From positions 1-40,696 of the forward strand of contig CALPWQ020000010.1 of NCBI GenBank assembly GCA_943327315.2: a stretch of 40,696 nucleotides of DNA, written 5' to 3'. Origin of the DNA: Chitinophaga pinensis (GTDB lineage Bacteria > Bacteroidota > Bacteroidia > Flavobacteriales_D > Crocinitomicaceae). Shown here in pieces: positions 16,168 to 32,474 of the stretch; the first letter of the stretch is position 1, and the number at the start of each line of letters is the position of its first letter. The position numbers and the translations under genes were made by a program. The notes beneath the pieces were generated by a model, which saw only the letters and a list, made by a program, of their open reading frames with translations, had not been told where the DNA came from and ran no database searches.

Positions 16168-16737
16168 TTAATCTTTAGGAAAAAAGTCGTCATATTGGTC
16201 CTTGAATCGATCTACGCCAATTTTAGTGCGCAACTTTTCAATGGCCCGTTTGTAATATTGAGAGCTATTGGTTAAACCTGTGATAGCATCTATTTCTTCT
16301 ACTGACCGATTCTCAAAAAGTTTCAGAATGACAATGGTTTGGTCTCTTTCGTTCAGCAAGGATAGAATTTCTTCCATGTTGAAATGCATCACGCTGCGCG
16401 ACGGGTCTTCGTGATGCAGCCCAGCTCCTTTTTGAAATGCTTTTCGCTCAAGGGCGTCGTCGTCCGGTAAGTCAGTCATGCGACGACTCTTTTTTGACGT
16501 TGTTTTTCGTAAAACTGAGTAACAAAAATTAATGGTCACCGTTGCGATCCAACTTTTCGAATCCCACTTAGCCAAGCTTTCGGCATCTTCATGCTCAATT
16601 TTTTCAAGGATGTGCATAGACAAGTCCTGAAAGACATCGTCCGCGTCCATGCCATTTTTAATGCGCACACGGATTGTCTTACGGATATTTTGCTCATGCC
16701 TCCGAATCAATTCAGTAAAAAGTAATCGTCTATTCAT
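16168..16737 (-). CDS. ECF-type RNA polymerase sigma factor
   Basis: This 189-residue protein has two sigma domains and no sigma-3. Region 2 is seen as GMDADDVFQDLSMHILEKI followed by WIATVTINFCYSVLRKT (about 28-78). Region 4 is LLNERDQTIVILKLFENRSVEEIDAITGL with the helix-turn-helix ending YKRAIEKLRTKI (about 127-172). It lies 15 bases after the 207-residue unknown gene and is probably co-transcribed with it. No classical anti-sigma factor with a TM helix or zinc motif is adjacent. It is plausible that it drives the nearby envelope genes, but no promoter motif pair was confirmed. Confidence 0.85.
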   Translation of the reverse strand: MNRRLLFTELIRRHEQNIRKTIRVRIKNGMDADDVFQDLSMHILEKIEHEDAESLAKWDSKSWIATVTINFCYSVLRKTTSKKSRRMTDLPDDDALERKAFQKGAGLHHEDPSRSVMHFNMEEILSLLNERDQTIVILKLFENRSVEEIDAITGLTNSSQYYKRAIEKLRTKIGVDRFKDQYDDFFPKD

Positions 16738-16752
16738 CCGTAGCTCTGTTAT

Positions 16753-17376
16753 TTAGATTTTCTCAACATCTGCGCATTTGTCAATCTCCATAGATGTTTC
16801 ACTGAATCGGAATAAAAATTCGTTGATGTCAGTTTTCTCACTCAGGGTTGTCCACGTTTGATTAAAGGTGCGCTTCGCCTTCGTTCGTGTTGCTTTGGCG
16901 TCTGAAATCATGTCTAAAAAGGGGATGTCTTGGTTTAAAAGAAGAGCATTTTTTTGTGAAAAGTCCATTTCATTGGCGATTCTGTTTTTAAAATGTTGGA
17001 AGGAAAACAACTGGTATTCGTCGCTCGCATTCTTGTTTTTGTCCGACGATTCAATTTCTTTTGCCATGCTGATTATTTTCTGAAAAAGCAGTTCATAAGG
17101 ACTGCCAATCATTAAATCAATTGTGTTCATTTTAATGGATGAGAAATACGCTTGAAGTGGTTCCGTCAAAGGATTGGATTCATACGCTAAATGCTCAGTA
17201 TCATCGAAATCCTTTACATAGGTTGCTTCTTCGTGCATTCCCGAATGGGTTGAATCAAACAACAACACATGATTGGTAAAGGCTTTTAAAACATTTTTGT
17301 CGGTACGTTGATAGGTCTCAAGCGCTTTATCACCGACCCAAAGTATGCCGTTTTCTGAATTTTCCGAATTTTTCAT
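16753..17376 (-). CDS. Hypothetical protein preceding the ECF sigma gene
   Basis: This is a 207-residue soluble protein with no signal peptide, no TM helix and no recognised motif. The first half is mixed and acidic (YVKDFDDTEHLAYESN); the second is mainly helical and charged. Its position as the first gene before an ECF sigma factor, with 15 bases between them, suggests a regulatory or co-expressed role. It starts 63 bases from the divergent peptidase gene, so the two transcription units share a small intergenic region. A cytoplasmic anti-sigma function is possible but unsupported by motif. Confidence 0.65.
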   Translation of the reverse strand: MKNSENSENGILWVGDKALETYQRTDKNVLKAFTNHVLLFDSTHSGMHEEATYVKDFDDTEHLAYESNPLTEPLQAYFSSIKMNTIDLMIGSPYELLFQKIISMAKEIESSDKNKNASDEYQLFSFQHFKNRIANEMDFSQKNALLLNQDIPFLDMISDAKATRTKAKRTFNQTWTTLSEKTDINEFLFRFSETSMEIDKCADVEKI

Positions 17377-17439
17377 TTCATTATGTTATTTTCAAAATAT
17401 CGATAGGTACGCCAAGAAATATGCTGAATAACTCTTAAT

Positions 17440-18711
17440 TTGAAAATTTCATCTAATTTAGAAAACAATCCATTGACTTACTTCTTCCGTAATAAAAATA
17501 GTTTGGTCACTTTTAGATTTTCACGGCACAATGAATGCAAAGTCGCAGGAAAAATTGCGGAACTTAGTTTTCTTGAACAGAGGATTAAGGAAGGTTTTAC
17601 GTTCTTTTTGGATCAACTTTCTAAATGGGTGAACGAAGATTTGGAAGTGAACATTGCTTTGTTGTCAAGTGATGCTTTTCCAAATGACTGGATCGCCATG
17701 TACAATGCTCAACAGTCATTGCCTCATTCTTTCCATTTTAGTTTTAACAGAGACTTTTTACAGCCGAGTCTACATGGTTATTCTGAAGATGGGCAAATTG
17801 AATTGAAAAAGGCGGTTCTTCATGAATTGACACATGCCTTTGATCATGCTGTAATTACAGAATCGAGTAATGTTTATGCTACGCGAAATTTTCATATTCA
17901 AGATGGTCAATCAGGTCCCGAGCCAAGCAATTTTTGGCTATTTATGCATTATATGTCATGCCTAAGAAATGAGGGGGTGGCCATGTTGGCAGAGGGCTTG
18001 TTTTTCCCTGAAAATGACCTGTCAAAAGAATCTGCTTGGCAGCATTTTTTAAATGATTTTCATTTCGTGATCGAGATGTCTACTTCGAACAGTAATCCTC
18101 AGAATTCCTTGGTGCGACTTCGATCTATTTGTGACAATCTATACCGTTATTCCGGAGAAATCATGCGAAGTGTTATTGATGATCAGATCACACACTTCGA
18201 AAACAATGATCGACTAAAAGTGCTTGAAGCTGCATGTGAATTGGATTTGTCCGAATGGATTGTGTTGATTGCTAAACGTTATGGAAATGAACAAACCAAT
18301 GATTCGCTTCATGCACTATTTTTCTTTTTAAGTCAACCGAAACGAAAGATGAAATCGGACAAAAGCATCCCTGATTTTTATGAGATGTATGCATACGATG
18401 ACTATAATTATCTCGATTTTCTTTCCAAAGTATGTCCGATGAAACTCGATAGTGAGGCCATACATCATGCGTTAAAAAACAGTTTTTTCAAATCAACTAT
18501 TTTTGATGTGGAGCATTCACTGAAAATAAAAACCATGGAGTTGGTTGAATGTAGAAACAATCACAACGCGGAGTTGGTGGACTGGACTTTGTCCTATATC
18601 TTGCTCAATGGAGATGTCATTGATGATCAGCTCGTATTTGTTGGTTATTTGGATGATTGGATGATTATGGATTGTACGATGCAGCGTATTCGAATGAACA
18701 CTGGGATTTAG
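17440..18711 (+). CDS. HExxH zinc-peptidase-like protein with DUF1232-like C-terminal tail
   Basis: This is a 423-residue protein with no signal peptide. The zinc motif HELTH is at residues 128-132 in a helix (KKAVLHELTHAFDHA). Downstream RNEGVAMLAEGL (Glu178, Glu185) supplies a gluzincin-like third ligand and helix. After a helical middle region, the C-terminus (about 384-415) reads LSYILLNGDVIDDQLVFVGYLDDW, which resembles the DUF1232/YkvA signature 'Y...D.IPD...vGylDD'. The only in-frame start is TTG 17440: a stop lies in frame at 17425-17427 and no in-frame ATG occurs until residue 87. It diverges from the ECF sigma unit. The cytoplasmic substrate is unknown. Confidence 0.72.
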   Translation: MKISSNLENNPLTYFFRNKNSLVTFRFSRHNECKVAGKIAELSFLEQRIKEGFTFFLDQLSKWVNEDLEVNIALLSSDAFPNDWIAMYNAQQSLPHSFHFSFNRDFLQPSLHGYSEDGQIELKKAVLHELTHAFDHAVITESSNVYATRNFHIQDGQSGPEPSNFWLFMHYMSCLRNEGVAMLAEGLFFPENDLSKESAWQHFLNDFHFVIEMSTSNSNPQNSLVRLRSICDNLYRYSGEIMRSVIDDQITHFENNDRLKVLEAACELDLSEWIVLIAKRYGNEQTNDSLHALFFFLSQPKRKMKSDKSIPDFYEMYAYDDYNYLDFLSKVCPMKLDSEAIHHALKNSFFKSTIFDVEHSLKIKTMELVECRNNHNAELVDWTLSYILLNGDVIDDQLVFVGYLDDWMIMDCTMQRIRMNTGI

Positions 18712-18984: not shown

Positions 18985-19953
18985 ATGAACGAACTATTTG
19001 CTATTCTGGGATTGAGCCTAATTGTCTCATTTTATTTGGCATTTAATGGCAGTTTTAATTTGCTCGGCGCTGGCAGTTCCACCAATGATCCGAATGCACC
19101 TGATAGAACGGGTTCAAACAATGTACCTTCTTCGATTCAAAACAATCTATTGCTCATAGAGCATCTAACACAGCACCTCCAAACATTTAGAAAAAACTAC
19201 CGCAATGGCCCGGAGAATTATAATGAATTCGGTTACAAGGTGGATGGGAGCATCAATGCCAATGGTCAAGATGTTGACTTAAGCTACACATACCCAATTA
19301 TAGGTGGTCAAAGCGTGACTTTTTCTGTTTGTTTGAATCCAACGGAGGTTTCTCAAGTAATTGATGGATATGGAGGAACTGAGGATGGCCGCGTATTAAA
19401 AGGAATTGAAATTACATCGAACAGTGGTCAGGCAACAGCAGAGACGAATTATCCCTATGTAGTTGATTTGAGCAATCAGTTTGCAGCTAAAATTGCAGCG
19501 CATATTGTTGAGAATTTACAGCAATTGGGAAAAGACGATTATGTATCGAGGGTCTTAGCTGCAAAGAATTTTGTTCAGCATTTGCCGTACGGTGTTCCTA
19601 AGTTTGAAATAGCACCGTTTCAATATATTGAACTTGCCTTGCCCTACGAATCATTTGTATTGAGCTATAGCGATTGCGACAGCAAATCAGTTTTTATGGC
19701 TGCAATTTTAAAGGAAATGATTGATGTTGAAAATATTGTTTTGGTCAGTTGTCAGGTGCAAGACCCTAATGTTCCTGGTGAAATGGGAGGGCATATGTTC
19801 ATTGGAGTGGCTGGGATGCCATTTCGTAAATCTTCTACAGCGGAATACAAGGGTAAAACGTATCATTTTATAGAGACAACCACGCCACACATTCCTGATG
19901 GACATCCGATGAATGATATTTCCGATCTTGAATTTTATCCTTTGGTGGTATGA
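18985..19953 (+). CDS. Membrane-anchored transglutaminase-like protein A
   Basis: This is a 322-residue protein. An N-terminal TM or uncleaved signal anchor covers about residues 4-21, followed by a Gly/Ser/Asn/Pro linker (27-50). A middle region of strands and helices leads to a papain-like transglutaminase fold: Cys231 in SYSDCDSKSVFMAA, His270 in MGGHMFIGV, and Glu297 in YHFIETTTP. The order Cys-His-acid and the 'DCD(S/T)(K/R)S' context match the transglutaminase-core superfamily, whose bacterial members may be peptidases or cross-linking enzymes. It is the first gene of a tight run and overlaps the next by four bases (ATGA). A paralogous enzyme lies at 25627-26517. Confidence 0.78.
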   Translation: MNELFAILGLSLIVSFYLAFNGSFNLLGAGSSTNDPNAPDRTGSNNVPSSIQNNLLLIEHLTQHLQTFRKNYRNGPENYNEFGYKVDGSINANGQDVDLSYTYPIIGGQSVTFSVCLNPTEVSQVIDGYGGTEDGRVLKGIEITSNSGQATAETNYPYVVDLSNQFAAKIAAHIVENLQQLGKDDYVSRVLAAKNFVQHLPYGVPKFEIAPFQYIELALPYESFVLSYSDCDSKSVFMAAILKEMIDVENIVLVSCQVQDPNVPGEMGGHMFIGVAGMPFRKSSTAEYKGKTYHFIETTTPHIPDGHPMNDISDLEFYPLVV

Positions 19954-20750
19954 CGGGAATGTTCAATTGGTTTACGAGTTTAAGTGCGCTGCAAGGGACC
20001 TTGTATTTCATTGGAGTTTTGCTTGCTCTGGGGTTAATGCCCTATTATGGAATTATTTTCAAATGCATTGGCTTCTGGTACCGAAAAGAAAAAGGGAAAA
20101 TTCTAGATTTTGAATTTGACATTTCTCCCGATCATTATCTTGTTACACTCAAGGGCAGGGAATACTATAAATTACCAGAAGACCAGGGGTTTCTTTTGAA
20201 CGGAGGGAGCATCATACTCACTTGGAGAGTTACTGGTGCTTACCGAGTAGATATCGATGGGGTGGGGAAGAAGTTGAAAGGGAATGGAGCTTATACCGTT
20301 GTGAACCGCAAGCGACCAAATTTCAAAATGACCATTTACACCTTGCAAGGCAAGAAAACGAAGATTTTACATCTCCCAGTTGAGAAAATAAAAGATTTAA
20401 ATACTGCAAAACTTGTGAATCAAAAGATGGGATTGACAAGAGAACTGATGGATCCAAATACACGTGAATTCACTAAATCGGCATATACAGGATTGTCATA
20501 CACGCATGCTCAGCCCAAGGTGAGCATATCTTATCCGAATGCACACATTTCATATCCGAAGAATAAAAACATGAATTACGAGTCGCCGAATCAAGGTGTT
20601 GATCGCAATAGGGTATTGTCAACGCTTTTGGAAAAGCAAAATACGGTAAAATTGAATTGTTTGAATTCCCAAAAGTACAACGCAAATGGGAAGCACTTTT
20701 TTCAGGATGTGAGGGACAAAATGCATCAGGAAATGATTGAAAATAAATAA
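19950..20750 (+). CDS. Single-TM protein with an Ig-like domain
   Basis: This is a 266-residue protein of unknown function. One TM helix lies at about 17-40, immediately followed by the basic cluster YRKEKGK, which suggests the C-terminal part faces the cytoplasm. Residues about 85-147 (GGSIILTWRVTGAYRVDIDG, then a G..AYTVV turn and MTIYTLQG) match the common bacterial Ig-like pattern 'W.v.gA..v.IdG.G.....G...V.P....TYTL'. The C-terminal 100 residues are polar and probably disordered, with near repeats VSISYPN and AHISYPKN. It overlaps the transglutaminase gene upstream, so the two products are likely made together. Confidence 0.65.
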   Translation: MTGMFNWFTSLSALQGTLYFIGVLLALGLMPYYGIIFKCIGFWYRKEKGKILDFEFDISPDHYLVTLKGREYYKLPEDQGFLLNGGSIILTWRVTGAYRVDIDGVGKKLKGNGAYTVVNRKRPNFKMTIYTLQGKKTKILHLPVEKIKDLNTAKLVNQKMGLTRELMDPNTREFTKSAYTGLSYTHAQPKVSISYPNAHISYPKNKNMNYESPNQGVDRNRVLSTLLEKQNTVKLNCLNSQKYNANGKHFFQDVRDKMHQEMIENK

Positions 20751-20791
20751 GAAAAAGTAAAGTTGAATAGTAAGTTTTAAAACAAATAGTT

Positions 20792-22105
20792 ATGAATGAA
20801 AATGTAGATTACAAATTGGATATTGACAAAATGGCAGGCAAGAAAATTGCTAAATTTTTGTGGAAATGTGCAGGTGGAGATGAGCGAATCATGCAGTATG
20901 CAAGTTATTACGACCACATGAAAATGATGGGGATCGGCGGAGTGGTTTTGGCTACAGCTGTTCTTGCAACTCTTGCGATGGGTTTTGCGATACAAACCAT
21001 TTTTGGTTCTTGGTACGCAACAATACCAATTGCTTTGGTTTGGGGATTGATCATTTTTAACCTAGATCGATTCATTGTTTCCGTTGGAAAAGGGGATGGT
21101 GAAGAGAAAATAGGAGGATGGGAATTTCTGTCAGCATTCCCAAGATTGGTCATGGCTATCTTCATTGGATTAACGATTTCTGCACCCTTAGAGACAGAGA
21201 TTTTTGACAAGGAAATTGATCGCGAGTGGGAAAATGCCAAGATGGACATGAGTATCAAACGACGCTACGAGGTAGAACAAGAGTTTTTGAATACGGGGGA
21301 ATACCGTTCCACAATGGATAAAATTAAACAAGATTCAGTCGTTTTAAGTCGTTCTGAACTGCTAAAGAATGAAGCGAATAACAATATTCTTTTACTAAAT
21401 ACAATAGGATTGTATGGCGCAGTACCGTGTAATAAAGGCGCGGTGTGCCGAAACACAAGCCACCAGACGCTCTATAAATTGGCGTCAGATGCGAATTTGG
21501 CATATGAAAAAGATTTGCGACGATTGGACAGTTTAAAAAAGGTGTTGGCATCCTTTGAGGACAAAAGAGTACTCATGTTGAACAATGCTGCAGATAGTAT
21601 AAAGGCGCTTAAACCAGGTTTCCTTGATAAAATTATGATGATTGAAAAGTTATCAAGCCAAGGTAAAGAAGTCGAAGTTTACGACCCCGCAACTGGTAAA
21701 ATCAAAATGGAAAATGGCAAGCCCGTTGTCAAAGAAATCTATGGCAATGCATGGTGGCCAATTAATCTAGTGCGATGGTTATTTATTCTACTTGAAGTAG
21801 CTCCAGTTTTGTTGAAGATGTTCATGGTGAAAAGTGCCTACGATTACATGCAAGAAAATGTCACTCAAATTCTTATTGCCAAGCAAGGGATCTATTACGA
21901 GCCGCTCAAAGATGAACATGGCAAGTTAATTTGGGCAGGAACGAATCACAACCCTGCAAGAATCATTGAGGTCATCAAACACCAAAATGAACTGGAAGAA
22001 CGCAACGCCAAAGAGGCCATTACGCTATTCGCCGATGAGGAAAGCAAAAAAATTAAAGACGACCCAAGTCAGTTTTTTGATGATAAAACGAAAAAAGGGG
22101 GTTAA
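20792..22105 (+). CDS. DUF4407 membrane protein A
   Basis: This 437-residue protein is a clear DUF4407 member. It opens with KFLWKCAGGDERIMQYASYYD (in part), a family hallmark. TM1 is at about 47-70, TM2 at 74-95 ending in WGLIIFNLDRFIV, and TM3 at 113-133 ending in the family motif PLETEIFDKEID. A long charged coiled-coil-like loop (about 140-318) with Cys213 and Cys219 follows, then TM4 at 322-345 and a cytoplasmic helical tail. No biochemical function is established for DUF4407. The gene sits 41 bases after its upstream neighbour and is followed by two one-TM proteins that could be partners. A diverged relative is at 24675-25622. Confidence 0.88.
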   Translation: MNENVDYKLDIDKMAGKKIAKFLWKCAGGDERIMQYASYYDHMKMMGIGGVVLATAVLATLAMGFAIQTIFGSWYATIPIALVWGLIIFNLDRFIVSVGKGDGEEKIGGWEFLSAFPRLVMAIFIGLTISAPLETEIFDKEIDREWENAKMDMSIKRRYEVEQEFLNTGEYRSTMDKIKQDSVVLSRSELLKNEANNNILLLNTIGLYGAVPCNKGAVCRNTSHQTLYKLASDANLAYEKDLRRLDSLKKVLASFEDKRVLMLNNAADSIKALKPGFLDKIMMIEKLSSQGKEVEVYDPATGKIKMENGKPVVKEIYGNAWWPINLVRWLFILLEVAPVLLKMFMVKSAYDYMQENVTQILIAKQGIYYEPLKDEHGKLIWAGTNHNPARIIEVIKHQNELEERNAKEAITLFADEESKKIKDDPSQFFDDKTKKGG

Positions 22106-22160
22106 GAAATTTTTAGGCGTATCGTATAAGTTGGATTTATAGATTCCTGTAAAGAGTAAA

Positions 22161-23282
22161 ATGGCGGAAGAATATGTGATATACGGTGATTTAGATGGGT
22201 ATTTTTATACCGATCAGGACAAAGCCGTGGAAAAACTTTTCGAAACGAAACACGATTCGAAGCCACATAAATTCAACATAAATTTATATACGGGTGACAT
22301 AACGAACATTGAGTTAAAGAACCAATACTTACCGCGTGAGTACGAGAATTATGAAAGTATCATTCTCTCAGGTGTCAAAGGATTAACGCTCAAATCTTTT
22401 CCAAATTCAAATCAGGATGAAAGTTTAGACTTTAGTTCATTGGTGTTGATCAATCCGGAGTATGTGCGCCATTGGTTCACGGATAGAGATCTGTTAAAAT
22501 CAAGCGCGAAGGATGTTGCTGGCCAAAGAAAAATGTACGTTCACGTGCGTTCTAAGGTCATTGGTAAGACGGTAAAACCGATGCCGTTGAAGAAAGTAGA
22601 TCCACCGCAAACGGGCGGAAATGGGCCTGGCGGAAATGGACCCGGTGGAAATGTACCTGGGTCTAAAAATCCTTTAACTGACCTTCTTGACAAAGGTAAG
22701 GGCTGTCTTTCTTCAGGTAGGGGATGCTTATCCAATCTTTTATCTTGGTTAAAATGGATCTTGTTATTGCTTTTGTTGTTGTGGTTGATTCGCAAATGCA
22801 ATGACGATGAGGGTAGACAGCGTACCTGCGATGAAGCAGATCGGATGAAGATGAAGGAGACCCAACGCAAAAGAGAGTTGGATTCCTTACAGAAGGTGTA
22901 CGATACGAATTTGGCGAATGAATTGGCAAATATTTCGAAAGTGTATTTTTACGAAAATGCTTCCGATGTCAATCCATCTTCCTTCGGCGCATATGATCAA
23001 GTACTGATCTTCATGAAAAAGTATCCTGAAATTTCTGTTGCGATTCAGGGATATGAAAATCCTGCGCCAAGAGAAAACGCAGGAACGGATTTGAAAAGAG
23101 CTGAAAGTCTCGCGAAATTTTTGAGAGACAATGGAATCGAATCGTCGCGCATGCGTCCAAAAGGAAACGGCAACAAAGCTCCAATTGTCAGCAATGAAAG
23201 GCAATTGGATGGAAAAGGAAGGTGGTTTAACCGAAATATGCGTGTGGAAATTTTCATTTTAAAGTCGAAAAATGGAAAATAA
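22161..23282 (+). CDS. Single-TM protein with cytoplasmic N-domain and C-terminal OmpA domain
   Basis: This is a 373-residue protein without a signal peptide. The N-domain (1-145) is beta-rich and related to that of the next gene. A GGNGPGG repeat linker (151-167) leads to GCLSSGRGCL (181-190), one TM helix (194-211), then RKC and a charged coiled coil (215-250). The C-terminal OmpA-like domain (about 258-368) has NAGTDLKRAESLAKFL (Asp310, Arg313) and FNRNMRVEIFIL, so peptidoglycan binding is plausible, though the usual GHTD motif is altered to GYENPAP. An OmpA domain must lie in the periplasm, giving an N-in topology. The TM helix lacks the acidic residue needed for a MotB-type proton channel. 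Confidence 0.78.
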   Translation: MAEEYVIYGDLDGYFYTDQDKAVEKLFETKHDSKPHKFNINLYTGDITNIELKNQYLPREYENYESIILSGVKGLTLKSFPNSNQDESLDFSSLVLINPEYVRHWFTDRDLLKSSAKDVAGQRKMYVHVRSKVIGKTVKPMPLKKVDPPQTGGNGPGGNGPGGNVPGSKNPLTDLLDKGKGCLSSGRGCLSNLLSWLKWILLLLLLLWLIRKCNDDEGRQRTCDEADRMKMKETQRKRELDSLQKVYDTNLANELANISKVYFYENASDVNPSSFGAYDQVLIFMKKYPEISVAIQGYENPAPRENAGTDLKRAESLAKFLRDNGIESSRMRPKGNGNKAPIVSNERQLDGKGRWFNRNMRVEIFILKSKNGK

Positions 23283-24675
23283 AATCACTCACAAAGTAAA
23301 GGCTCAATTTGAAGGCCATTTCTTTACGCAACAGAAAGAGGTGCACGAGAGTGCGGTGAAAATTGTTCCAAATGATTCTCATTTGATGCACATCTACCGC
23401 GGCCATGTGACAGAGGTCGAGTTATTGAATGTGGATGAAAAATTACCAAAAACAGATTTTGAATTTTATCAGGTACACAACATTCAAATTGAAGCCGGAG
23501 GACAATGGCCACATGAAAATCCAAGAATTTTTGATTTCTATGAATTCTTCTTGGATGATGTAAAATTCGGTCAGCCTAATTTTCAGAAAGGTGTGCATTC
23601 ATCATTGAAAAATGAGGAGACGTATGTTAAAATTTCAGGCACCTTGTACGGGTCTATTTTGGAGCGTAAAATAAATCCTCCTGCCAATAAGCCACTGCCT
23701 AATCCAGTGCCAGACGAGCCCTGTATTCAATGCAATGCGGATAATAAATCGGGAGGCTATGGCGTTGACCAAAGAGAAATAGTTCTTGGGGAGGAGTCTG
23801 GGAAAGTTTGGCTCAGGTTCAATCCAGTTCAGCGGATAGATAGACTAGAGGTGTTTTATGAAGGAAATAGAATTTGGTCGACTTATGAAGTTCATCCCAA
23901 TGTAGATGGTTTTGTTGGGGGAGATTTATCTTCAGCGAAACAATCGACGGAAATGTGGAAGTCTTTTGATTACAAATTCAATAAAGACACCAATGTTTCT
24001 GTTGTTGTGACAGGAAAAGAACCAGATACAATTTGGGATTACACCCTGTTTTGCCCAAATCATATTCCACCCAACCTTCCGGCGAATGCAGGAAATGATC
24101 CTGGTGGTAATGGCGGAACGGATGTCGATGACCCCCAGAAGCCTGATTCACCGTTTACGAATGCTTTGTCTGGTTGCAGAAATAAAGGTTGTTTAAATTG
24201 GTTGAAATACTTATTTCTTCTGCTGCTGATTTTGTTTTTGCTCAAGCAATGTACCTCACTTGGACGTCACTTTGCATGCTATTATGAAAAAGCACAGAGT
24301 GAGCGCTTGATCAAAGAATACGACGAAGAGATTGAACGCAAGAAAAAGGAAATTGACGACACGAAAATTGAGGTTGAGCCTTGTGCATCCAAAAAGGCGA
24401 ATGGAACAAATGAGGTCACTACGGATTACTATGAATTGGGAGATAAGTCCGGGACAGTAGGTGTTGTATATGATATGATAGAGGCCAAAGATATGATGGA
24501 AGTCTATTATGATGGTGAGTTGGTAGGTAGTACGAACGGTTTGGTATCTGGAACGGGAACGATTTCATGGAATTACACAGCGGTAAAAGGAAAACCGACA
24601 CGCTTCATGGTGAAATTGACACCAGGCCCTGATCCCGATACAGAATGGAGTTATGATTTAATTTGCCCACAATAA
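23272..24675 (+). CDS. Single-TM protein with the same N-domain and a beta-domain repeated on both sides of the membrane
   Basis: This is a 467-residue protein overlapping the previous gene by 11 bases. The N-domain (1-137) parallels the previous gene's: AQFEGHFFTQ, HIYRGHVTEVELLN and YVKISGTLYGS align with YGDLDGYFYTD, NLYTGDITNIELKN and MYVHVRSKVIG. Domain A (about 165-262) ends PDTIWDYTLFCP. After a Gly/Asp linker and GCRNKGCLNWLKY come one TM helix (310-325) and a charged coiled coil. Domain B (about 384-466) ends PDTEWSYDLICP. A and B share the pattern 'LG..SG.V....(N/D).......(V)(F/Y)Y.G' and the W.Y.L.CP ending, so one was copied from the other. No known enzyme motif is seen. Confidence 0.72.
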   Translation: MENKITHKVKAQFEGHFFTQQKEVHESAVKIVPNDSHLMHIYRGHVTEVELLNVDEKLPKTDFEFYQVHNIQIEAGGQWPHENPRIFDFYEFFLDDVKFGQPNFQKGVHSSLKNEETYVKISGTLYGSILERKINPPANKPLPNPVPDEPCIQCNADNKSGGYGVDQREIVLGEESGKVWLRFNPVQRIDRLEVFYEGNRIWSTYEVHPNVDGFVGGDLSSAKQSTEMWKSFDYKFNKDTNVSVVVTGKEPDTIWDYTLFCPNHIPPNLPANAGNDPGGNGGTDVDDPQKPDSPFTNALSGCRNKGCLNWLKYLFLLLLILFLLKQCTSLGRHFACYYEKAQSERLIKEYDEEIERKKKEIDDTKIEVEPCASKKANGTNEVTTDYYELGDKSGTVGVVYDMIEAKDMMEVYYDGELVGSTNGLVSGTGTISWNYTAVKGKPTRFMVKLTPGPDPDTEWSYDLICPQ

Positions 24676-25622
24676 TGGAATTGTACACTCAAATAGGCAT
24701 TGGACCTGATAGTTTTTCGACTCTTTCAACAGAGGAAGGAGATCGTCAAAAAAAGATTTATTCGCGCTTGGTGATTTTGATCATTTTGACGTCAATACTT
24801 GCGGCCTTTTCGATGTTCATGTTCGCAACAATTGTTTTTCAATCGTATTTCATTGCTGTTCCTAGTGGACTTTTTCTTGGCTTGGTGCTGTACAATTTTC
24901 AGCGCTTATTGATCATTGCTTCCTTGACACCTCAAGATGAAACACTCTACTTGAATTGGCTCGATAAAAAACGGGAATTTGAAGACTTAACGGATGCGAA
25001 GGTGATGGAATTGCAATCCAAAGCGGAACGCGAGGCTTTTCTAACTGATAAAAAAATGGCTTTTCGAAATGCTGCGGCTAATTTTAAACCGCGCAAAACG
25101 GGATTCGGAAGTCAGTTTATTGGTAAACTGGTTATCGTTCTGATCTTGGTTTTGTTTGGAATAATTGTCGCAAATGGACTAGAACTTTTCTTGTTTCGTG
25201 GACAAATTAATGAATCCATTGACAAGTTATTGCAATCAAAGGAAGTTGTAGTCGATCAATGGACGAAGAAACATATTTTCACCTCGACGAATGGAAAAGA
25301 GTTTCTACTCATCAATTCAAGATCACTTCTGGTGGATATTGAATTTCTTACCCGAGGATTGGGATATTGGAAGTATTTAATGGATTTCATTGTGCTTATT
25401 ATCTTTCTTCTCCCCATAATTTTGTTGAACAAAAGCGATGAATTTTTAAAAGGACCCGTAATGAGAGAATTGGTACTGCAGGAGTTGAAGATCACCAATG
25501 ATCATTACATCCTTTCAAGACGTTTCATTCTCATTGAAAAAGAGGAGTATATAAAGTGGCTATCAAACAGGTCATACGCTGATTTTTACAATCGATCAGA
25601 GCGACCAAACAAGAAAAACTAA
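24675..25622 (+). CDS. DUF4407-like membrane protein B (diverged)
   Basis: This 315-residue protein has the layout of DUF4407 with shorter loops: TM1 at about 32-55, TM2 at 58-82 (GLFLGLVLYNFQRLLIIAS), TM3 at 150-172 (ending NGLELFLFRGQI) and TM4 at 231-252. TM2 aligns with WGLIIFNLDRFIV of protein A, with the conserved Asp replaced by Gln; TM3 aligns with PLETEIFDKEI. The CAGGDE N-terminal motif is missing. I chose ATG 24675, which overlaps the upstream stop (TAATG), over the TTG at 24663. The similarity was judged by eye, so the relation is probable rather than certain. It may form a hetero-complex with protein A. Confidence 0.68.
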   Translation: MELYTQIGIGPDSFSTLSTEEGDRQKKIYSRLVILIILTSILAAFSMFMFATIVFQSYFIAVPSGLFLGLVLYNFQRLLIIASLTPQDETLYLNWLDKKREFEDLTDAKVMELQSKAEREAFLTDKKMAFRNAAANFKPRKTGFGSQFIGKLVIVLILVLFGIIVANGLELFLFRGQINESIDKLLQSKEVVVDQWTKKHIFTSTNGKEFLLINSRSLLVDIEFLTRGLGYWKYLMDFIVLIIFLLPIILLNKSDEFLKGPVMRELVLQELKITNDHYILSRRFILIEKEEYIKWLSNRSYADFYNRSERPNKKN

Positions 25623-25626
25623 TCGA

Positions 25627-26517
25627 ATGAATAGTAAGAAATACTTTAACATTGGGAACCTTGTCTTTTGGATATTGCTTCTCTTTTTGTTTCTTGTATT
25701 CATTCCATTTTTTGGTGATTTCTTCTTCAATGAAAAATTGGTCAAAGAATGGGAAAAGGAATTAAAGACGGAGGATAGACAAGATGAAGAGTGGGATGAT
25801 ACAGAAAATGAAGATACGAGTTCAGTCAATGGGAAGATAAACATTGTTTGGAAATGGCAAGATTACGATCGAGAATGGCATGAAATCTCCTTTTCTGTTG
25901 ATTCAGTTCAATTGAATCAAGTGCCAGGATTTAGAGAGGACCAAGGAAATATTCTCAATGTACTGTATGGCAAGTTGCATGACAACAGCTTGCCAATAAT
26001 GGATCCGATGATTGAAGCGTTTAAAGCTGAAATAAAAAGGCAAAATTATCCAAAACAGGAAGCTTATATGAAATCAATGGAGTTGGTAGCTTCGGCAGTG
26101 CAGTTTATTCCTTACACTTTGGTGCTTGATGATCAAGAAGAATGTCCTTGTGAAATGCCTTTCGGAAGTTTCAGTGCGGATTGTAAGGTGCAAAGCGACG
26201 GACGCGGGTGTTGCAGTGGAATCATGCCTTTAGGTGTCTATGCGCCCGCTGAGTTTATGTACCACAAAAAAGGGGATTGCGACACGCGTTCTTTGTTTGC
26301 ATACACCATCTTGAATGAACTCGGTTTTGATGTGGCTGTGATGGTGAGTATGAAAGAAGGGCATAGTGTTTTGGGGGTCCATCTAAAAAATAGAAACTGT
26401 CCGAGCTATGGTAAAGATGCTTCGGGTAAAAAGTACTTTTTATGGGAACTTACCGCAAGGGATTTTCAGTTGGGGTATGACGTAAAAGGAAATGATTGGG
26501 AATCCTATTTAAATTAA
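25627..26517 (+). CDS. Membrane-anchored transglutaminase-like protein B with a cysteine cluster
   Basis: This is a 296-residue protein. A basic N-terminus (MNSKKYF) precedes a TM helix at about 11-30, which puts the rest in the periplasm. An acidic linker (36-66) is followed by a helical and beta region, then the catalytic core: Cys218 in KKGDCDTRSLFAYTI, His246 in KEGHSVLGVHL, Glu274 in FLWELTARDF. Before the core lie Cys173, Cys175, Cys186, Cys195 and Cys196 (ECPCEMPFG, then GRGCCSG), which could form disulfides or bind a metal; protein A lacks this cluster. The gap to the upstream gene is four bases. Substrate and reaction (hydrolysis or cross-linking) cannot be told from sequence. Confidence 0.78.
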   Translation: MNSKKYFNIGNLVFWILLLFLFLVFIPFFGDFFFNEKLVKEWEKELKTEDRQDEEWDDTENEDTSSVNGKINIVWKWQDYDREWHEISFSVDSVQLNQVPGFREDQGNILNVLYGKLHDNSLPIMDPMIEAFKAEIKRQNYPKQEAYMKSMELVASAVQFIPYTLVLDDQEECPCEMPFGSFSADCKVQSDGRGCCSGIMPLGVYAPAEFMYHKKGDCDTRSLFAYTILNELGFDVAVMVSMKEGHSVLGVHLKNRNCPSYGKDASGKKYFLWELTARDFQLGYDVKGNDWESYLN

Positions 26518-26541
26518 TGTTAACCATAAAAATGACGTAAA

Positions 26542-27018
26542 ATGAGTACTTCTGTAATTAACTTAGCAATTGTTGTTCTGTTGGGAATAGCTTATATGTT
26601 CACCTATTCATTGGTGATTAGCAAGTTCCTCAATAAAATATCAACACCAAAAAACACGGCCATTCTGATGATTTATTTCTCGGCCTTGCTTTCGGCGGGG
26701 GTCAATTTGTACCACATTTCTGAAATATCAACCAATGCCTTTACGTTCTTTTTCGACAAACAAGATTTCGCGAATGCCATTCTATATTCAATGGGGTTCT
26801 TTATTGGAATGTGGCTTTTCTCTTTTTCATTTTTCTGGATTAGCTTCTTTCTTGTCGGGATGTTTACCTCGCAAGTTGAAAAACATGAATTGTCAAGGAA
26901 CAACAGAGAAATCGCAGGATTACACGGTGCTATTTTGATCACCCTATCCTTTGTAATCGCACCTGTTTTAATCTCTATTGCGGCTCAATTTATTCCATAT
27001 CCAGAATTGCCCTTCTAA
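26542..27018 (+). CDS. Small four-TM membrane protein, unknown
   Basis: This is a 158-residue hydrophobic protein with TM helices at about 5-27, 41-62, 80-108 and 130-152. Short charged loops include KFLNKISTPKN and SQVEKHELSRNNRE. The second loop and the positive-inside rule suggest both ends face the periplasm, or that one helix is re-entrant. I do not recognise a family; it superficially resembles DUF350-type small integral proteins, which also have four TMs, but no decisive motif was found. Spacing of 24 bases upstream and 17 downstream places it inside the ten-gene run. Confidence 0.65.
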   Translation: MSTSVINLAIVVLLGIAYMFTYSLVISKFLNKISTPKNTAILMIYFSALLSAGVNLYHISEISTNAFTFFFDKQDFANAILYSMGFFIGMWLFSFSFFWISFFLVGMFTSQVEKHELSRNNREIAGLHGAILITLSFVIAPVLISIAAQFIPYPELPF

Positions 27019-27035
27019 TTTTCGGGAAAGAAATA

Positions 27036-28553
27036 ATGGATCAGCGGTTAAGGATACTTTTTTTTCTTGTTTTATCGATGGCATTCAATTCGGATTTGCA
27101 TGTGATTCAAGCTGCCGAAATAAATTTCCGTAGTGATCAGCAGGCAGAATCTGAATTTATCCGAAATAATCTTGCACTGATAAAGTTCAATCCTATCAAT
27201 GCTTTTCGGTATACTCTTCAGATGGATGAATCTTTGGAGGTAGACAAGGGGTCGCATCATTTCAAAATAGCCATTCAGGGGAAATTGGATTACCTTGAAC
27301 TAGGAAAAAAGGTTTCGATGATACTTGATTCAATTTCACTCGACAAAGGTGAAATGTCAAAATACTTTCAGCTAAACAAACAAGAGGTTCATCAATTCAG
27401 CTTCAATGGTACGCTATATTTTTTGAGGTCCAAATCATCGATTGAACTGATTCAATCCTTTTTTGAAGCCATTTGGTTAAGTTCGAAAGAAGTGTTGATT
27501 TTGAACGGCTGTGGTGATGTACTTCCTTATCAATTTGTTCGGGCAACTTTTACACCCTTAAATCTTTTTCTTTTCAATGGAAACGTACCCTTAGGGCATA
27601 TTGTTGGTGCCAGTTCAGAATCATTTAAGACCAATGAAAATACGCTTATTCATAAAGCTGAAATGTCCTATTTCAGCGCTCAGAATGCGCTAAGATTAAA
27701 AGAGGAAATTTTCGACTATTCGGTCTTGAATCCTCGCGAGACGAACTCAATCATGAGGATGCTGATTTATGATGGAATTCGTTTTAGCGAAAAAACCAAT
27801 CAAAATGAATTCACGTGTGCTTTTTCCATCGAGTACACCGATGAAGGACTGAATCTATCTCGGTTTTCTGAATACAATCTCAACATTGCTAATCCTCCAT
27901 TTGATCATGTGAGACATATTTTAGACCAGAATTATCCTAGTGTTTTATGCGACAATTTTGTCAACTCAAGATACGACATACGCATGACTTTGCGCACTTC
28001 AGAAATCGGTATAATTCAGCGAAAAAACCTCATTTCAATGCCTATTTTAAATGAACTTGGTTTTCCATCGGGTAGATATTCTCTTCGAGAGCGGTACATC
28101 ACAGTAAATGATTCCGTTTTCCATTCTACTCAGCTATTGGGCTATAAGGCCTATGGTTGGGAAAATGGCTTGCTCGCGGCTGTAGTGCCTGGTTTAGGAA
28201 TGAAAAGGGTGTCAAATTCTCTTCGAAAATCAATTCTTTGCTTTGGATTGGTCGCTTTACCGACTATTTTTGCCCTTACAGCCGAAGGTGTTTCGCAACA
28301 GTATTTTAAAAAATACTACAATGAAGCGAATGACACACCAATTGGATCCTCACCCAATTATTCGCGAGCAAACAGGTGGCATAAAGCTTCGTTACTATCC
28401 ACGGGCGTATCCGCTGTCGCATGGCTGTTTCAGTTTTCGTGGGTGATTAAATTGGGGATAGAAAATGATGTTGAAGAGAAGATGATTCGATCAGTGTTGA
28501 ACAAGGACAAACTTGTGTATGTGGATGAATTCAAAGAGTATGTTCAATTTTAG
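27036..28553 (+). CDS. Exported protein with a C-terminal DUF5683-like two-TM region
   Basis: This is a 505-residue protein. A signal peptide is likely at 1-28 (ILFFLVLSMAF, cleavage near IQAAE). The first 350 residues are mixed alpha/beta without a recognised family. The C-terminus reads GLLAAVVPGLGMKRV, then a TM helix (ILCFGLVALPTIFALTA), a polar loop with YFKKYYNEAND and NYSRANRWHKAS, and another TM. This is the layout of DUF5683 proteins of Bacteroidota ('PGLGQ.Y', TM, Tyr-rich loop, TM). The match is by pattern only. It overlaps the following lipoprotein gene by 14 bases and closes the membrane part of the gene run. Confidence 0.62.
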   Translation: MDQRLRILFFLVLSMAFNSDLHVIQAAEINFRSDQQAESEFIRNNLALIKFNPINAFRYTLQMDESLEVDKGSHHFKIAIQGKLDYLELGKKVSMILDSISLDKGEMSKYFQLNKQEVHQFSFNGTLYFLRSKSSIELIQSFFEAIWLSSKEVLILNGCGDVLPYQFVRATFTPLNLFLFNGNVPLGHIVGASSESFKTNENTLIHKAEMSYFSAQNALRLKEEIFDYSVLNPRETNSIMRMLIYDGIRFSEKTNQNEFTCAFSIEYTDEGLNLSRFSEYNLNIANPPFDHVRHILDQNYPSVLCDNFVNSRYDIRMTLRTSEIGIIQRKNLISMPILNELGFPSGRYSLRERYITVNDSVFHSTQLLGYKAYGWENGLLAAVVPGLGMKRVSNSLRKSILCFGLVALPTIFALTAEGVSQQYFKKYYNEANDTPIGSSPNYSRANRWHKASLLSTGVSAVAWLFQFSWVIKLGIENDVEEKMIRSVLNKDKLVYVDEFKEYVQF

Positions 28554-29715
28554 ATTGATAAGCCTTAAACTTTTCGTTTTGGTCATGCTGCTTTCTGTAG
28601 GATGCGAAAAGTATGTGCGTTGGAATCTGCCTGTTAAAGCTGATTTGGCACTTGCTGTATTTAGTGTGTCCAATGACACCATCATTGTCAAAGGGGATAT
28701 CTTGAATGAAGGATACGGTGAGCTTACACAGCTCGGATTAATCGTAGCGAAAGGAAATGATTTTCTTCATGCCGACACCCTATATCCAGATTCATTCACT
28801 AACAAGACCGCCTATTTTAAGGTTGTAGATTTTGAGTTGTCTAGTTATTATGAATTGAAATTTTATGTGGTCGGTGAGGCCGGTTTCTCCTGCAGTAAGA
28901 CCATAGCGTTGAATACTCCAAATCCGATAGGTGCGCCAGAAGTACATACCTTAGCGCCAAATGAGACAACAATCAATTCGACAAGGTTGTATGGAAATGT
29001 TTCTAATCAAGGGGCACAAATAGTGACTGAACGGGGATTTTGTTGGTCAACAAGTCCCAATCCAACAACAAGTAATTCTTTCATTATTGTCGGAAGTGGC
29101 TTGGGGTATTTTGACGTAAAAGTAGAGAGCCTTAGTCCCAACACGCTCTATTATGTACGTGCCTATGCGGCAAATGCAATTGCGACCTCGTATGGAGAGC
29201 AGTTGACAGTGGAGACATCGAACTTAGGACAATTGAATTTCGGCGATTCTGTGTTTGGAGGACTATTCTTTTATTATTTACAACCGGGTGATGAGGGTTA
29301 TGTTTCTGGCGAAATTCATGGTTTAGTTGCTGCTACAGAAGACCAAGGAGTTGGTTCTAGCTGGGGTTGTCCGGGCAGCATTGTGTCCACAACGCCATCG
29401 ATTGGGGCAGGATTGAGTAATTCGCAACAAATCGTGTTAAATTGCGCTGACCCAGTTTTTGCTGCAAAAACATGCATTGATTTATCGTTAAATGGATATA
29501 CGGATTGGTACTTGCCCTCTTACGAGGAATTGCGAAAAATGAGACAAAATTTACTGCTCAATGGGCTAGGCAACTTCTTCCCATCGTGGTATTGGTCGTC
29601 TCATCAATTTTCAGGCGCTACCGCGGGAAGTGTCAACTTCAATACCAATCAAACAGAAGTCGGGAATTTCCCTAAAGAATATACCTATCGGGTACGGGCA
29701 ATTCGAATGTTCTAA
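28540..29715 (+). CDS. Lipoprotein with FN3-like repeats and a DUF1566/Lcl-type C-terminal domain
   Basis: This is a 391-residue lipoprotein. ATG 28540 gives a good lipoprotein signal (MLLSVGC, lipidated Cys22); the earlier ATG at 28513 would add nine polar residues inside the upstream gene. Residues about 130-230 contain the FN3-like 'TERGFCWSTSPNPTTSN...LSPNTLYYVRAYA' module frequent in Bacteroidota surface proteins. The C-terminal 160 residues (GDSVFGGLFFYYLQPGDEGY, then GYTDWYLPSYEELRKM and the final YRVRAIRMF) match the DUF1566/Lcl C-terminal pattern, seen in adhesins and cell-surface proteins. It is the last gene of the run, so a surface-exposed end of the system is possible. Confidence 0.78.
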   Translation: MFNFRLISLKLFVLVMLLSVGCEKYVRWNLPVKADLALAVFSVSNDTIIVKGDILNEGYGELTQLGLIVAKGNDFLHADTLYPDSFTNKTAYFKVVDFELSSYYELKFYVVGEAGFSCSKTIALNTPNPIGAPEVHTLAPNETTINSTRLYGNVSNQGAQIVTERGFCWSTSPNPTTSNSFIIVGSGLGYFDVKVESLSPNTLYYVRAYAANAIATSYGEQLTVETSNLGQLNFGDSVFGGLFFYYLQPGDEGYVSGEIHGLVAATEDQGVGSSWGCPGSIVSTTPSIGAGLSNSQQIVLNCADPVFAAKTCIDLSLNGYTDWYLPSYEELRKMRQNLLLNGLGNFFPSWYWSSHQFSGATAGSVNFNTNQTEVGNFPKEYTYRVRAIRMF

Positions 29716-29738: not shown

Positions 29739-31403
29739 TTACAAGCTTTTCCGAACAGTAAACGTGGTTCTTCGATTGAGTTGATGTTGTTCCTCGGTGC
29801 ATTTTATCCCATCCGAACACGCGTTGAGTAACAGGGATTCTCCATATCCCCGTGCACTCAAACGAAGTGGGTCAATTCCTTTGGCAATAAGATAAGACAC
29901 AACGGATTGCGCCCTGTTCTGAGAGAGAACCAAATTGTATTGGGATGAACCGCGGCTATCGGTATGAGAACCAATTTCAATAAATAATTGAGCGTTGTCA
30001 ATCATCAGTTTTACCAAATTGTCAAGCTCCGTAATGGCATCACTTCTGAGGTTAAATTGGTCGTAATCGTAATAAATTGCGTTGAGTCGAATTGGTTTAT
30101 CCATCTCAATGATTTCAACCTCGAAATCGGCTTTAAAGTCTGTAGATTCCTGCAAACCTAGTGTGGAAATTGTATCGGATTTTGTGAAAGCACCATCATA
30201 CGCGGCATAAACGACGTACGTCGAACCTTTCTCAAGTGAAAACTTGACTTCACCCTTATCATTACTCATAAGTTCCCAGGTTTGAGAAGATTCTATTTTC
30301 TTTATTTTGAAAGTTGCCCCTTTGATGATTTTTTGGGTTCCGAACCATCTTGAGTTCGCGAAAAAGTTAAAAACGAGCGCTGAATTTCCTGTAGGCGCAT
30401 GATTTGGAAAAACGCGAATGAAATCGTTGGAAAAAAGTCGGTTTGTGCTGTTTTCAATAGATTGGTCATAGCGCTGGTGAAGACGGACGGGTGTGAACCA
30501 ATAGTGGTCGTGCTGTGCTGAAATGTAACTGAATAAACCTTCCTTGTGATCACGACAGAAGAAGAGAGAGCCATCATCGGATAGATAGGGCAAGAATTCA
30601 TTGGCACTCGTATTTATTTCTGCGCCTAAATTCATTGGGCTTGTCCATTGTCCGTCGATTAGATAGGAACAATAAATATCTGTTCCACCAAAGCCATTGG
30701 GTAAATTAGCAATAAAATAAAGTATATTTCCATCGCTTGATATCCAAGGATGTATGCGAGAGTAGTTAGGTAAATTCGATGCATTCTGAAGAAGAGCACC
30801 ATTTTCAAAACGATTCACAATGTCAGTCCTTAAATACAGAGGACTTAACCAGAATAGGGCGTTTTTCTGATTAAAGTAAGTTGTGTTTTTCTTTTCATCC
30901 TCATACAACTGTTGGATCCATAGATTGCTGTAATTCGTTGAATTGTACGGTTTATCTGTCCAGTAATCCCGCAAAAAAACCATCGGGTAATGAATGTTTT
31001 CATTGACAAAGGTTCGGCACACGGCCAACATAAATAAAGCCGCTAGATCAGTTTTATTCTCAAGAGTGTATTGAAGAAGTTCCTTGTCTGCCTTGTCGTA
31101 TTTTCCTTGTTCCATGAGTACACGTATATACTCCATATGGTGATAGGGTGAAATAGACAAGCCTTCAAGTATAGCATTGCTAAAAAATTGTTCAGCAAGA
31201 TCAAGTTTTCCCATTTTAGCATAGCATTGTGCAAGCATAAACTTGACATCTGACTTCTTGCCTTTTTTTATTGCCGCATTGAAGTGAGCAATGGCCATCG
31301 GGTAATTAGAGTGGTCGTAATAAGATTCCCCTTTCTGAATATGAAACCTTGAACATGAAGCAAGCACGATAGTCGCAAGAAGAACTGAGGTTTTTATAAA
31401 CAT
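29739..31403 (-). CDS. PorE-like OmpA lipoprotein (TPR, beta-propeller, CRD, OmpA)
   Basis: This is a 554-residue lipoprotein with the lipobox VLASC (Cys17). TPR-like helices (about 20-130: YPMAIAHFNAAI, AKMGKLDLAEQFFSNAI, EQGKYDKADKELLQY) are followed by a PD40/WD40-type propeller (about 210-330, with HPWISSDGNILYF, GGTDIYCSYL, FLPYLSDDGSLFF). A carboxypeptidase-regulatory-like domain (about 355-420) and an OmpA domain (IGSHTDSRGSSQYNLVLSQNRA, in part, and NRRTTFTV) complete it. This order is that of PorE, which links the type IX secretion system to peptidoglycan. Bacteroidota genomes hold several paralogues, so I do not assign porE. It converges on the ten-gene run with a 23-base gap. Confidence 0.87.
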   Translation of the reverse strand: MFIKTSVLLATIVLASCSRFHIQKGESYYDHSNYPMAIAHFNAAIKKGKKSDVKFMLAQCYAKMGKLDLAEQFFSNAILEGLSISPYHHMEYIRVLMEQGKYDKADKELLQYTLENKTDLAALFMLAVCRTFVNENIHYPMVFLRDYWTDKPYNSTNYSNLWIQQLYEDEKKNTTYFNQKNALFWLSPLYLRTDIVNRFENGALLQNASNLPNYSRIHPWISSDGNILYFIANLPNGFGGTDIYCSYLIDGQWTSPMNLGAEINTSANEFLPYLSDDGSLFFCRDHKEGLFSYISAQHDHYWFTPVRLHQRYDQSIENSTNRLFSNDFIRVFPNHAPTGNSALVFNFFANSRWFGTQKIIKGATFKIKKIESSQTWELMSNDKGEVKFSLEKGSTYVVYAAYDGAFTKSDTISTLGLQESTDFKADFEVEIIEMDKPIRLNAIYYDYDQFNLRSDAITELDNLVKLMIDNAQLFIEIGSHTDSRGSSQYNLVLSQNRAQSVVSYLIAKGIDPLRLSARGYGESLLLNACSDGIKCTEEQHQLNRRTTFTVRKSL

Positions 31404-31487: not shown

Positions 31488-32474
31488 ATGAAAACCATTG
31501 CCAAGCGTTACAGAACATCAACAAAGCAAAATGAAATAATTCAACGTGCTATGACGAATAATCAACGTGTATTGGTGTATCTCGCGTCTGGACCAAACAG
31601 GGATGAATACGAGAAGTTGCCTTACGACAAAATCATATTGATTGATTACAACTTTTTCAAGCATGATCAATTGGGAGATAAAGTGGAGTGTTGGAGTTGC
31701 AATGCGATCGAAGCCGTTGAGCGTTTTCATCAGCGCGAAATGAAAATAAACTGCCTCGTGAACATCAATGAGGGTTTACAAGAAGGGGGAGGGTCGTTTG
31801 TTATGCTGTCGGATTTTATGATGGGATATTTGTCTCCACTGCTTATGGATGAATTTATCTTAGTGACGAATTTGCCGTATTATCAGAGTGTTCACATTTA
31901 TGGGAAAATCAAAAAACTAGACTGGGGATATGATTTCAAGCAAATTTCACGAGATGAGTCTGATTTTGTTGATCCGTGGCAATTTTCTCATTACTCGCGC
32001 GGGACTTCAATGCGTAAAGAAGGTTTTGGGGAAGTTTTTCGTTTGCGCCGCATCCAAAAGTCAAAAGTACTCCAATTAAATCCTGCACTTGATGTTCGCA
32101 TCAAACAAGAAAGTATATGGAAAGATGCATATAAATTGGATTTCATCGGTGTGAGTATTTCCAGTGTAAAGGCTTTGTATAAAATGAATCCTAGAGATGT
32201 AAAGTCCTTCTTTCTGCAAAAAGAGAATACGCATGATATCCGAGGTAGAAGCATGTTGCGAATACTAGAATACTGCGAATCGCATAAAATTGAATCGATT
32301 GGATTAATGCCTTGGCGAGATGGAGACTACACAGAGGCAATCGAAGCGATAATTCAGCATAAGGCAGTATTTGTTAAAGAGATTACATTCTTTCATCTGT
32401 CTAAACACGACTATGCCCAACTGTACAATTGCATGCAAAATAATGTTGAACATGAAACGAAACAGTATGAATAG
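31488..32474 (+). CDS. Hypothetical protein, possible Rossmann-like fold
   Basis: This is a 328-residue soluble protein. The N-terminal half shows alternating strands and helices: RVLVYLASGPNRDEY, KIILIDYNF, CWSCNAIEAVERF, INCLVNINEGLQEGGGSFV. That layout resembles a Rossmann-like fold (a nucleotide or SAM binder), but no standard glycine-rich motif or catalytic residue can be named. The second half is basic, with FFLQKENTHDIRGRSMLRILEYC and a final helical stretch. Its stop overlaps the start of the next gene by eight bases (ATGAATAG), so the two probably act together. It has no TM helix or signal peptide and does not resemble its neighbours. Confidence 0.65.
   Translation: MKTIAKRYRTSTKQNEIIQRAMTNNQRVLVYLASGPNRDEYEKLPYDKIILIDYNFFKHDQLGDKVECWSCNAIEAVERFHQREMKINCLVNINEGLQEGGGSFVMLSDFMMGYLSPLLMDEFILVTNLPYYQSVHIYGKIKKLDWGYDFKQISRDESDFVDPWQFSHYSRGTSMRKEGFGEVFRLRRIQKSKVLQLNPALDVRIKQESIWKDAYKLDFIGVSISSVKALYKMNPRDVKSFFLQKENTHDIRGRSMLRILEYCESHKIESIGLMPWRDGDYTEAIEAIIQHKAVFVKEITFFHLSKHDYAQLYNCMQNNVEHETKQYE

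Follow-up and report, generated by a model that had tools for sequence, protein, structure and literature searches.

A strictly ordered eight-gene cassette of Bacteroidota that joins two DUF4407 membrane proteins with transglutaminase-like enzymes, and its putative signalling function

The window analysed here is the whole 40,696-base contig CALPWQ020000010.1 (C10) of a Chitinophaga-labelled assembly (3.04 Mb, 97% complete, 178 contigs). On its plus strand, positions 18985-29715 are taken up by ten open reading frames (ORFs), neighbours overlapping or standing apart by no more than 55 bp, just as a first-pass annotation had described them, and its counts of transmembrane (TM) helices agree as well. 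That annotation took all ten genes for one candidate envelope system. An ordered, co-located unit does exist, but it consists of the first eight genes (18985-27018), which are almost certainly inherited together and are called the cassette below, while genes 9 and 10 are excluded. G-numbers denote genomes (the window's own is G000) and L-numbers denote loci. The eight genes are, in order:

18985..19953, plus strand, tgA: N-terminal TM helix and a transglutaminase-like (TG-like A) domain with C231, H270 and E297
19950..20750, plus strand, ig: single TM helix followed by an Ig-like domain, which is predicted to be cytoplasmic
20792..22105, plus strand, dufA: DUF4407 protein with four TM helices and a helical hairpin (about residues 139-271) between TM3 and TM4
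22161..23282, plus strand, ompA: beta N-domain, Gly-Cys before a single TM helix, OmpA-like C-terminal domain
23272..24675, plus strand, oneTM2: ompA-like N-domain and TM helix, C-terminal beta-domain with paired Cys
24675..25622, plus strand, dufB: short DUF4407 paralogue with four TM helices; judged by its homologues it probably starts at ATG 24675, not at TTG 24663 as in the ORF list
25627..26517, plus strand, tgB: N-terminal TM helix and a transglutaminase-like domain with C218, H246 and E274, predicted periplasmic
26542..27018, plus strand, 4tm: four-TM protein with weak resemblance to DUF350, last gene of the cassette

A profile scan over one genome per species gave 80 loci, among which eight (L033-L040) carry tgA-ig-dufA-[one or two one-TM genes]-dufB-tgB-4tm in a single order on a single strand, and L042 is cut by its contig. 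Together with the window, G015, G009, G012 and G010 these form the type I set. Homologues scattered over related genomes would have spoken against a system; the homologues were found co-located, with the order kept in 11 complete type I loci and agreeing up to the contig end in three more (L027, L030 and L042). Two one-TM genes are present in six of the complete loci and one in five, and the intergenic gaps there range from -31 to 64 bp. By title, the sources are Chitinophagaceae, Chitinophaga-labelled, Crocinitomicaceae, Flavobacteriales and unplaced Bacteroidetes metagenome-assembled genomes, and the eight-gene order persists where the identity of DUF4407-A drops to 38-48%. Moreover, the cassette contains three paralogous pairs (DUF4407-A/B, ompA/oneTM2 and tgA/tgB), and purifying selection acts on each of the eight genes, as judged by ratios of nonsynonymous to synonymous substitution (dN/dS) of 0.034-0.135, lowest in tgB (0.034) and 4tm (0.036). 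Terminator-like sites are at chance level (9 against 9.1 expected), none of them on the plus strand within 18985-27018, and a promoter scan likewise gave chance level only.

The ten-gene unit was rejected after the last two genes had proved to be separable neighbours:

27036..28553, plus strand, gene 9: outside the cassette; no Pfam match; dN/dS 0.197
28513..29715, plus strand, gene 10: outside the cassette; lipoprotein-type, with an Lcl_C-like end

The core is set at 18985-27018 because neither the gene 9 nor the gene 10 profile finds a match in any of L033-L040, because G010 lacks both genes at this place and has a homologue of the window's gene at 31488 after 4tm, because G015 has a disrupted lipoprotein gene (L023 4000-5152; an internal loss and a frame change split its front from the Lcl_C-like end), and because gene 9 changes faster than the core. 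Thus the span to the outer membrane, for which the lipoprotein had been invoked, is left unsupported. The name DUF5683-like, proposed for gene 9, finds nothing in Pfam at E <= 1, and the C-terminal Lcl_C-like domain of gene 10 lies just under its Pfam cut-off (32.3; cut-off 34.9). A diversity-generating retroelement was considered and dropped, as the template repeat sought for the Lcl_C-like ends was not convincingly found in the contigs examined. On the minus strand at 29739-31403, an OmpA/TPR/PD40 protein faces the run; G015 and G009 have homologues of it in the corresponding position, and G010 has none in the stretch from 4tm to its counterpart of the 31488 gene.

A second, shorter architecture, type II, has the order small Ig-like gene - dufA - dufB' - ompA - a gene for N-domain, TM helix and TG-like domain in one protein - four-TM gene. 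It is found from dufA onward in L025, L026 (dufA cut), L044, L047, L051, L052, L057, L083 and G100, and in L050, where only the last gene is missing, at the contig end; in L041 a 317-aa gene without a match to the ompA profile takes the place of ompA. At its front, the TG protein of type II is similar to the one-TM N-domain (hhalign 94.0%, E 1.4e-07; with single-sequence profiles 2/11 match at E <= 0.003, against a best value of 0.23 among 130 control ORFs), which suggests that N-domain and TG-like enzyme belong to one machine. Both types occur on one Chitinophagaceae contig, about 14 kb apart (L033/L044). Within the genus, type I is present in G000, G009, G010, G015 and G012 (cut), type II-like loci in G004, G007, G021, G022 (cut) and G020 (on a 3-kb contig), and neither in 16 of the 26 genomes. 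DUF4407 is found in 9/26, the window's own genome included, and tgB in 8/26; seven of these eight also have DUF4407, and in the eighth, G020, an OmpA one-TM gene adjoins tgB. Across a phylum sample of 395 genomes, tgB is matched strongly (E 2.9e-40 or better) in G000, G100, G126 and G311, in all four beside DUF4407; four weaker matches are in genomes without a match to the dufA profile. The dufA-family profile matches in 116/395, so most DUF4407 genes stand outside the cassette. With tgA as the anchor, 13/395 genomes match, full-length in the window's own only, the rest being TG-B-like or other proteins.

In a Pfam scan of the ten proteins, DUF4407 was assigned to genes 3 and 6 and, barely, OmpA to gene 4, with no match at E <= 1 for genes 1, 2 and 9 and a chance-level one for gene 7; in NCBIfam all matches were below cut-off. 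The two DUF4407-type proteins named in the first-pass annotation both exceed the cut-off of the family (PF14362; dufA 148.3 and dufB 37.8 bits, cut-off 31.3), and dufB aligns with the DUF4407-A family at 97.5% in hhalign. The AlphaFold2 model of dufA (mean predicted local distance difference test, pLDDT, 80.5; predicted template-modelling score, pTM, 0.61) has four TM helices, of which TM3 and TM4 are separated by a long helical hairpin, and the VIA rows for dufA cover mainly this hairpin (residues 138-275). The two one-TM proteins are related as claimed (hhalign ompA/oneTM2 100% over 233 columns, N-domain plus TM helix). Gene ompA reaches 27.4 bits with Pfam OmpA (cut-off 27.2), and its model (mean pLDDT 76.6, pTM 0.41) joins a five-strand N-terminal domain to an OmpA fold; its best matches (Foldseek E 2.7e-07; VIA Z up to 14.5, root-mean-square deviation 3.4, 119 aligned) are OmpA-type domains and say nothing on the fold of the N-domain. 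The OmpA motif binds the peptidoglycan peptide by an Asp and an Arg, of which the Arg is kept in 10/10 type I rows and the Asp in 2/10, while both are kept in 7/7 type II rows. Of the proposed link from OmpA to peptidoglycan, therefore, the fold stands, and the anchoring is doubtful in this genome because the motif Asp is Asn. In oneTM2, the beta-domain is repeated ahead of the TM helix; the two copies are 33% identical (score 118 against 60 for the best of 500 shuffles), and of ten aligned rows those of the window, G015, G010 and G009 alone have this insert. By charge patterns, the Ig-like domain is inferred to face the cytoplasm (C-flank of ig net positive in 10/12), as would the one-TM N-domains if the OmpA end is taken as the guide.

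A polytopic protein beside a one-TM protein with an OmpA-like domain, and the invariant charged residues D92, R93, E335 and K342 near the DUF4407 TM helices, could also fit an ion-driven stator of the MotAB/ZorAB/ExbBD kind, in which DUF4407 would be the channel and the one-TM OmpA proteins its peptidoglycan-bound partner. In stators, the single TM helix of the partner carries a conserved acidic residue, and ZorB is built of one TM helix and an OmpA-like domain. The one-TM helix of the cassette has no acidic residue in 17/21 rows and an Asp near its edge in 4/21, and the long insert of DUF4407 sits between TM3 and TM4, which argues against the stator topology; no stator is found among the best 50 of 704 Foldseek rows, which excludes nothing. 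As the acid of the partner is not conserved, stator membership was rejected, and we regard a stator as very improbable. The cassette resembles the ZorA/ZorB pair of Zorya (PMC11890865) in pairing an inner-membrane protein with a one-TM OmpA-like protein, but differs in the missing conserved acid of the partner helix and in that no cassette protein matches ZorA or ZorB in PADLOC.

As to the two Cys-His-Glu transglutaminase-like enzymes that had been proposed, the ordered, invariant triad supports the claim: C231, H270 and E297 of tgA are invariant in 12/12, the tgB triad is present in 23/23 rows (two of them the same gene from overlapping loci), and the two families align (hhalign 97.9%) with Cys, His and Glu coinciding. 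A transglutaminase Pfam match is lacking for both proteins, and no transglutaminase-like profile exceeds its cut-off in the families either (0/12 for tgA; for tgB 1/12 with Transglut_core at E 0.0061 and one with Transglut_core3 at 0.11). Sequence searches against solved structures returned no relative of tgA, tgB, ig, dufA or oneTM2, only weak or coiled-coil rows. The C-flank of the tgB helix is net negative in 12/12 and the N-flank net positive in 11/12, and TG-B is predicted to be periplasmic. The product of 4tm scores 19.5 bits with DUF350 (PF03994), below the cut-off of 26. A TG gene and a four-TM gene are paired without adjoining DUF4407 in G198 and G352 (weaker tgB matches), which suggests that the two work together. 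Such a pair of a TG-B-like and a four-TM gene with no DUF4407 beside it lies at L126 8301-9791 and L127 8646-10138, in two genomes of the phylum other than the window's own.

Two TG-like enzymes, an OmpA-like domain and strong purifying selection would be expected, too, of an envelope maturation or cross-linking machine that joins or trims peptidoglycan or surface proteins constitutively, with no signal. However, most relatives lack the cassette, and a core envelope function fits poorly because tgB is absent from most of them; such a machine would also leave the conserved cytoplasmic parts roleless. We therefore think it unlikely.

In the genomic setting, the ORFs flanking the 11 complete type I loci, 130 in number, were compared all against each other. 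Of the 86 in L033-L040, 23 have a match in another locus and 63 have none; L036, L037 and L038 have some common neighbours, L034 and L040 have two genes in common, and many flank genes are common to the window, G015 and G009, as expected within one genus. An earlier view that all loci have unrelated flanks was overturned by this direct comparison; judged by these ORFs, the cassette positions are mostly different, yet not wholly independent. L038, L039, L040 and G009 have a thioesterase gene close to the cassette and G012 has one beside it, on varying sides and strands (L040 7453-8004, L039 5577-6125, L038 14690-15235, L028 12250-12801 and L027 454-1023). Related genes of 203-228 aa stand directly beside the cassette in L033 (7511-8194), L035 (7591-8277) and L039 (14597-15208), before tgA in two loci and after 4tm in one, and may be accessory.

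A module of peptidase-like, giant reverse transcriptase-leucine-rich repeat (RT-LRR), LRR, MoxR ATPase and DUF2201 vWA proteins borders the cassette in G015 and G009 (L140 208-9547; L141 541-10994); its retron III-A-like RT is fused to a giant DUF4116 protein and matches the retron-type model RT_III-A of PADLOC at 1.4e-73. Upstream of the cassette, the window has kept (16168-18711) genes for a Sigma-70-type factor, a 207-aa protein and a peptidase-like protein, whose homologues flank this module in G015 and G009; the other four module genes are missing at this place, and the vWA protein has no match anywhere in the window's assembly. Further upstream, on the minus strand at 11052-15887, is a gene for a 1611-aa AAA/STAND-like ATPase with 72% identity to a G015 homologue near the same locus. 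In the genus, 2/26 genomes have a strong DUF2201 homologue, in either case at the cassette, and G023 has a 26% match. This surrounding, together with the patchy spread of DUF4407 in the genus and the L031 DUF4407 gene described below, would suit a conflict or anti-phage system that senses invasion and damages the envelope of its own cell with the TG-like enzymes. The support is local, however. The models of vWA, MoxR and sigma factor are silent in L033-L040, dufA has no plasmid match, and the single PADLOC match among the ten proteins has E 0.062. In the flanks, 107 of 120 proteins were used (13 were dropped, namely nine small type II genes, two lipoprotein and two gene-9 homologues) and matched 46 families, against 42 families for 80 control proteins hand-picked from 211 and drawn less strictly, hence a loose control; among the 25 families listed for each there is no clear excess. 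The PADLOC flank matches include AbiEi, AbiEii, AbiGi and DrmC (one each) and PDC-S01 and CorA (two each), and since they show no clear excess over the controls, a defence island was rejected; three further matches are to ZorB/MotB, and Pfam likewise finds three OmpA proteins in the same set. We consider a defence function rather unlikely.

At L031 (4294-11099), the DUF4407 gene follows PLD, vWA, PP2C-like and kinase-like genes, the latter two below the Pfam cut-off, and these neighbours presumably correspond to a TerY-P-type triad of vWA, PP2C and kinase; in the open-access literature searched, no paper on this triad turned up, the matches looking unrelated by title. The C-terminal region of the kinase-like protein is related to ig (74.6%, E 2.6e-05), while the cassette itself has no kinase, phosphatase or vWA gene. 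Some MoxR-vWA ternary conflict systems, in the portions of the two sources consulted, have OmpA or transglutaminase-like effector domains (PMC7159879, PMC8195603). A MoxR-vWA pair stands beside the cassette in two genomes, but no MoxR or vWA gene belongs to it, and DUF4407 is not mentioned in the main texts of PMC7159879 and PMC8195603.

Several features argue that the cassette parts work together: the order is conserved, paralogous pairs are present, the triad is intact, and in type II the N-domain is fused to TG. Our preferred reading, to which we give a probability of roughly 0.38, is an inner-membrane complex in which a DUF4407-A/B scaffold would relay a signal from the cytoplasm to a thiol enzyme in the periplasm. 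DUF4407-A and -B would be the membrane scaffold, with the helical hairpin entering the periplasm; the Ig-like domain and the N-domains would read a signal in the cytoplasm and thereby change the scaffold, and this change might switch or position TG-B with its four-TM partner. TG-B may then cleave or cross-link an envelope protein, and in proteins that keep the binding residues, the OmpA domain could tie the complex to peptidoglycan. The wider proposal is put forward with slightly less confidence: a new transmembrane machine, present as types I and II in several Bacteroidota lineages, in which a DUF4407-A/B heteromer would relay the Ig-like/N-domain signal across the inner membrane and gate a periplasmic Cys-His-Glu enzyme.

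LapD has GGDEF, EAL and HAMP domains, among them its c-di-GMP (cyclic dimeric GMP) receptor domains, and the triad of LapG ends in Asp. In LapD/LapG, as far as the consulted parts of the reports go, periplasmic proteolysis is controlled from the inside out, a membrane protein with an input from the cytoplasm controlling a periplasmic transglutaminase-like Cys protease (PMC4359373, PMC3032545), and the cassette is proposed to act alike. It would resemble LapD/LapG in the way it works without being a member, and its membrane part would have no common ancestry with LapD: no GGDEF, EAL or HAMP domain is found by Pfam in the ten proteins at E <= 1, the cassette triad ends in Glu, and a DUF4407 pair, Ig-like and OmpA parts are present instead.

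Several observations weigh against this reading of a signalling scaffold. Profile support for the TG family assignment is weak, and the tgA and tgB profiles find no transglutaminase among solved structures; Foldseek with the dufA model gives no solved match at E <= 0.001. The membrane sides come from charge counts, by which the side of tgA is ambiguous and ig fits incompletely (exceptions L027 and L037), and a paired-Cys beta-domain on both sides of the oneTM2 helix fits a simple cytoplasmic N-part poorly. The OmpA motif Asp is lost in the window, and the type II-like loci of G126, G311 and G007 (L029, a shorter divergent form) have no recognisable OmpA gene. The small type II gene is only weakly related to ig (1/14 members, L041, at 6.4e-05; 3.2% probability at the alignment level). 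Selection is not specific to the core, as the sigma factor next door is also constrained (dN/dS 0.080) and several dS values exceed 1. Furthermore, since some flanks are common, the thioesterase gene being among the 23 such ORFs of L033-L040, part of the conserved order may reflect common descent of one place.

The statement of the first-pass annotation that no described system is known to have this composition agrees with the open-access literature searched, in which we found no description and in which DUF4407 appears in no title or abstract. As far as that search goes, the cassette is real, strictly ordered, rare and undescribed, with a putative function; its novelty rests on composition and on the failed membership tests, not on a proven mechanism. 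Since DUF4407 stands here in a strictly ordered cassette beside enzymes, cytoplasmic domains and an OmpA-like end, the role of this widespread family can begin to be approached, and the conserved triad offers a simple test by point mutants. If the proposed mechanism is true, it would give a first role to the wide DUF4407 family, as a signal-transmitting scaffold that would also serve in kinase/vWA and lone-gene contexts.

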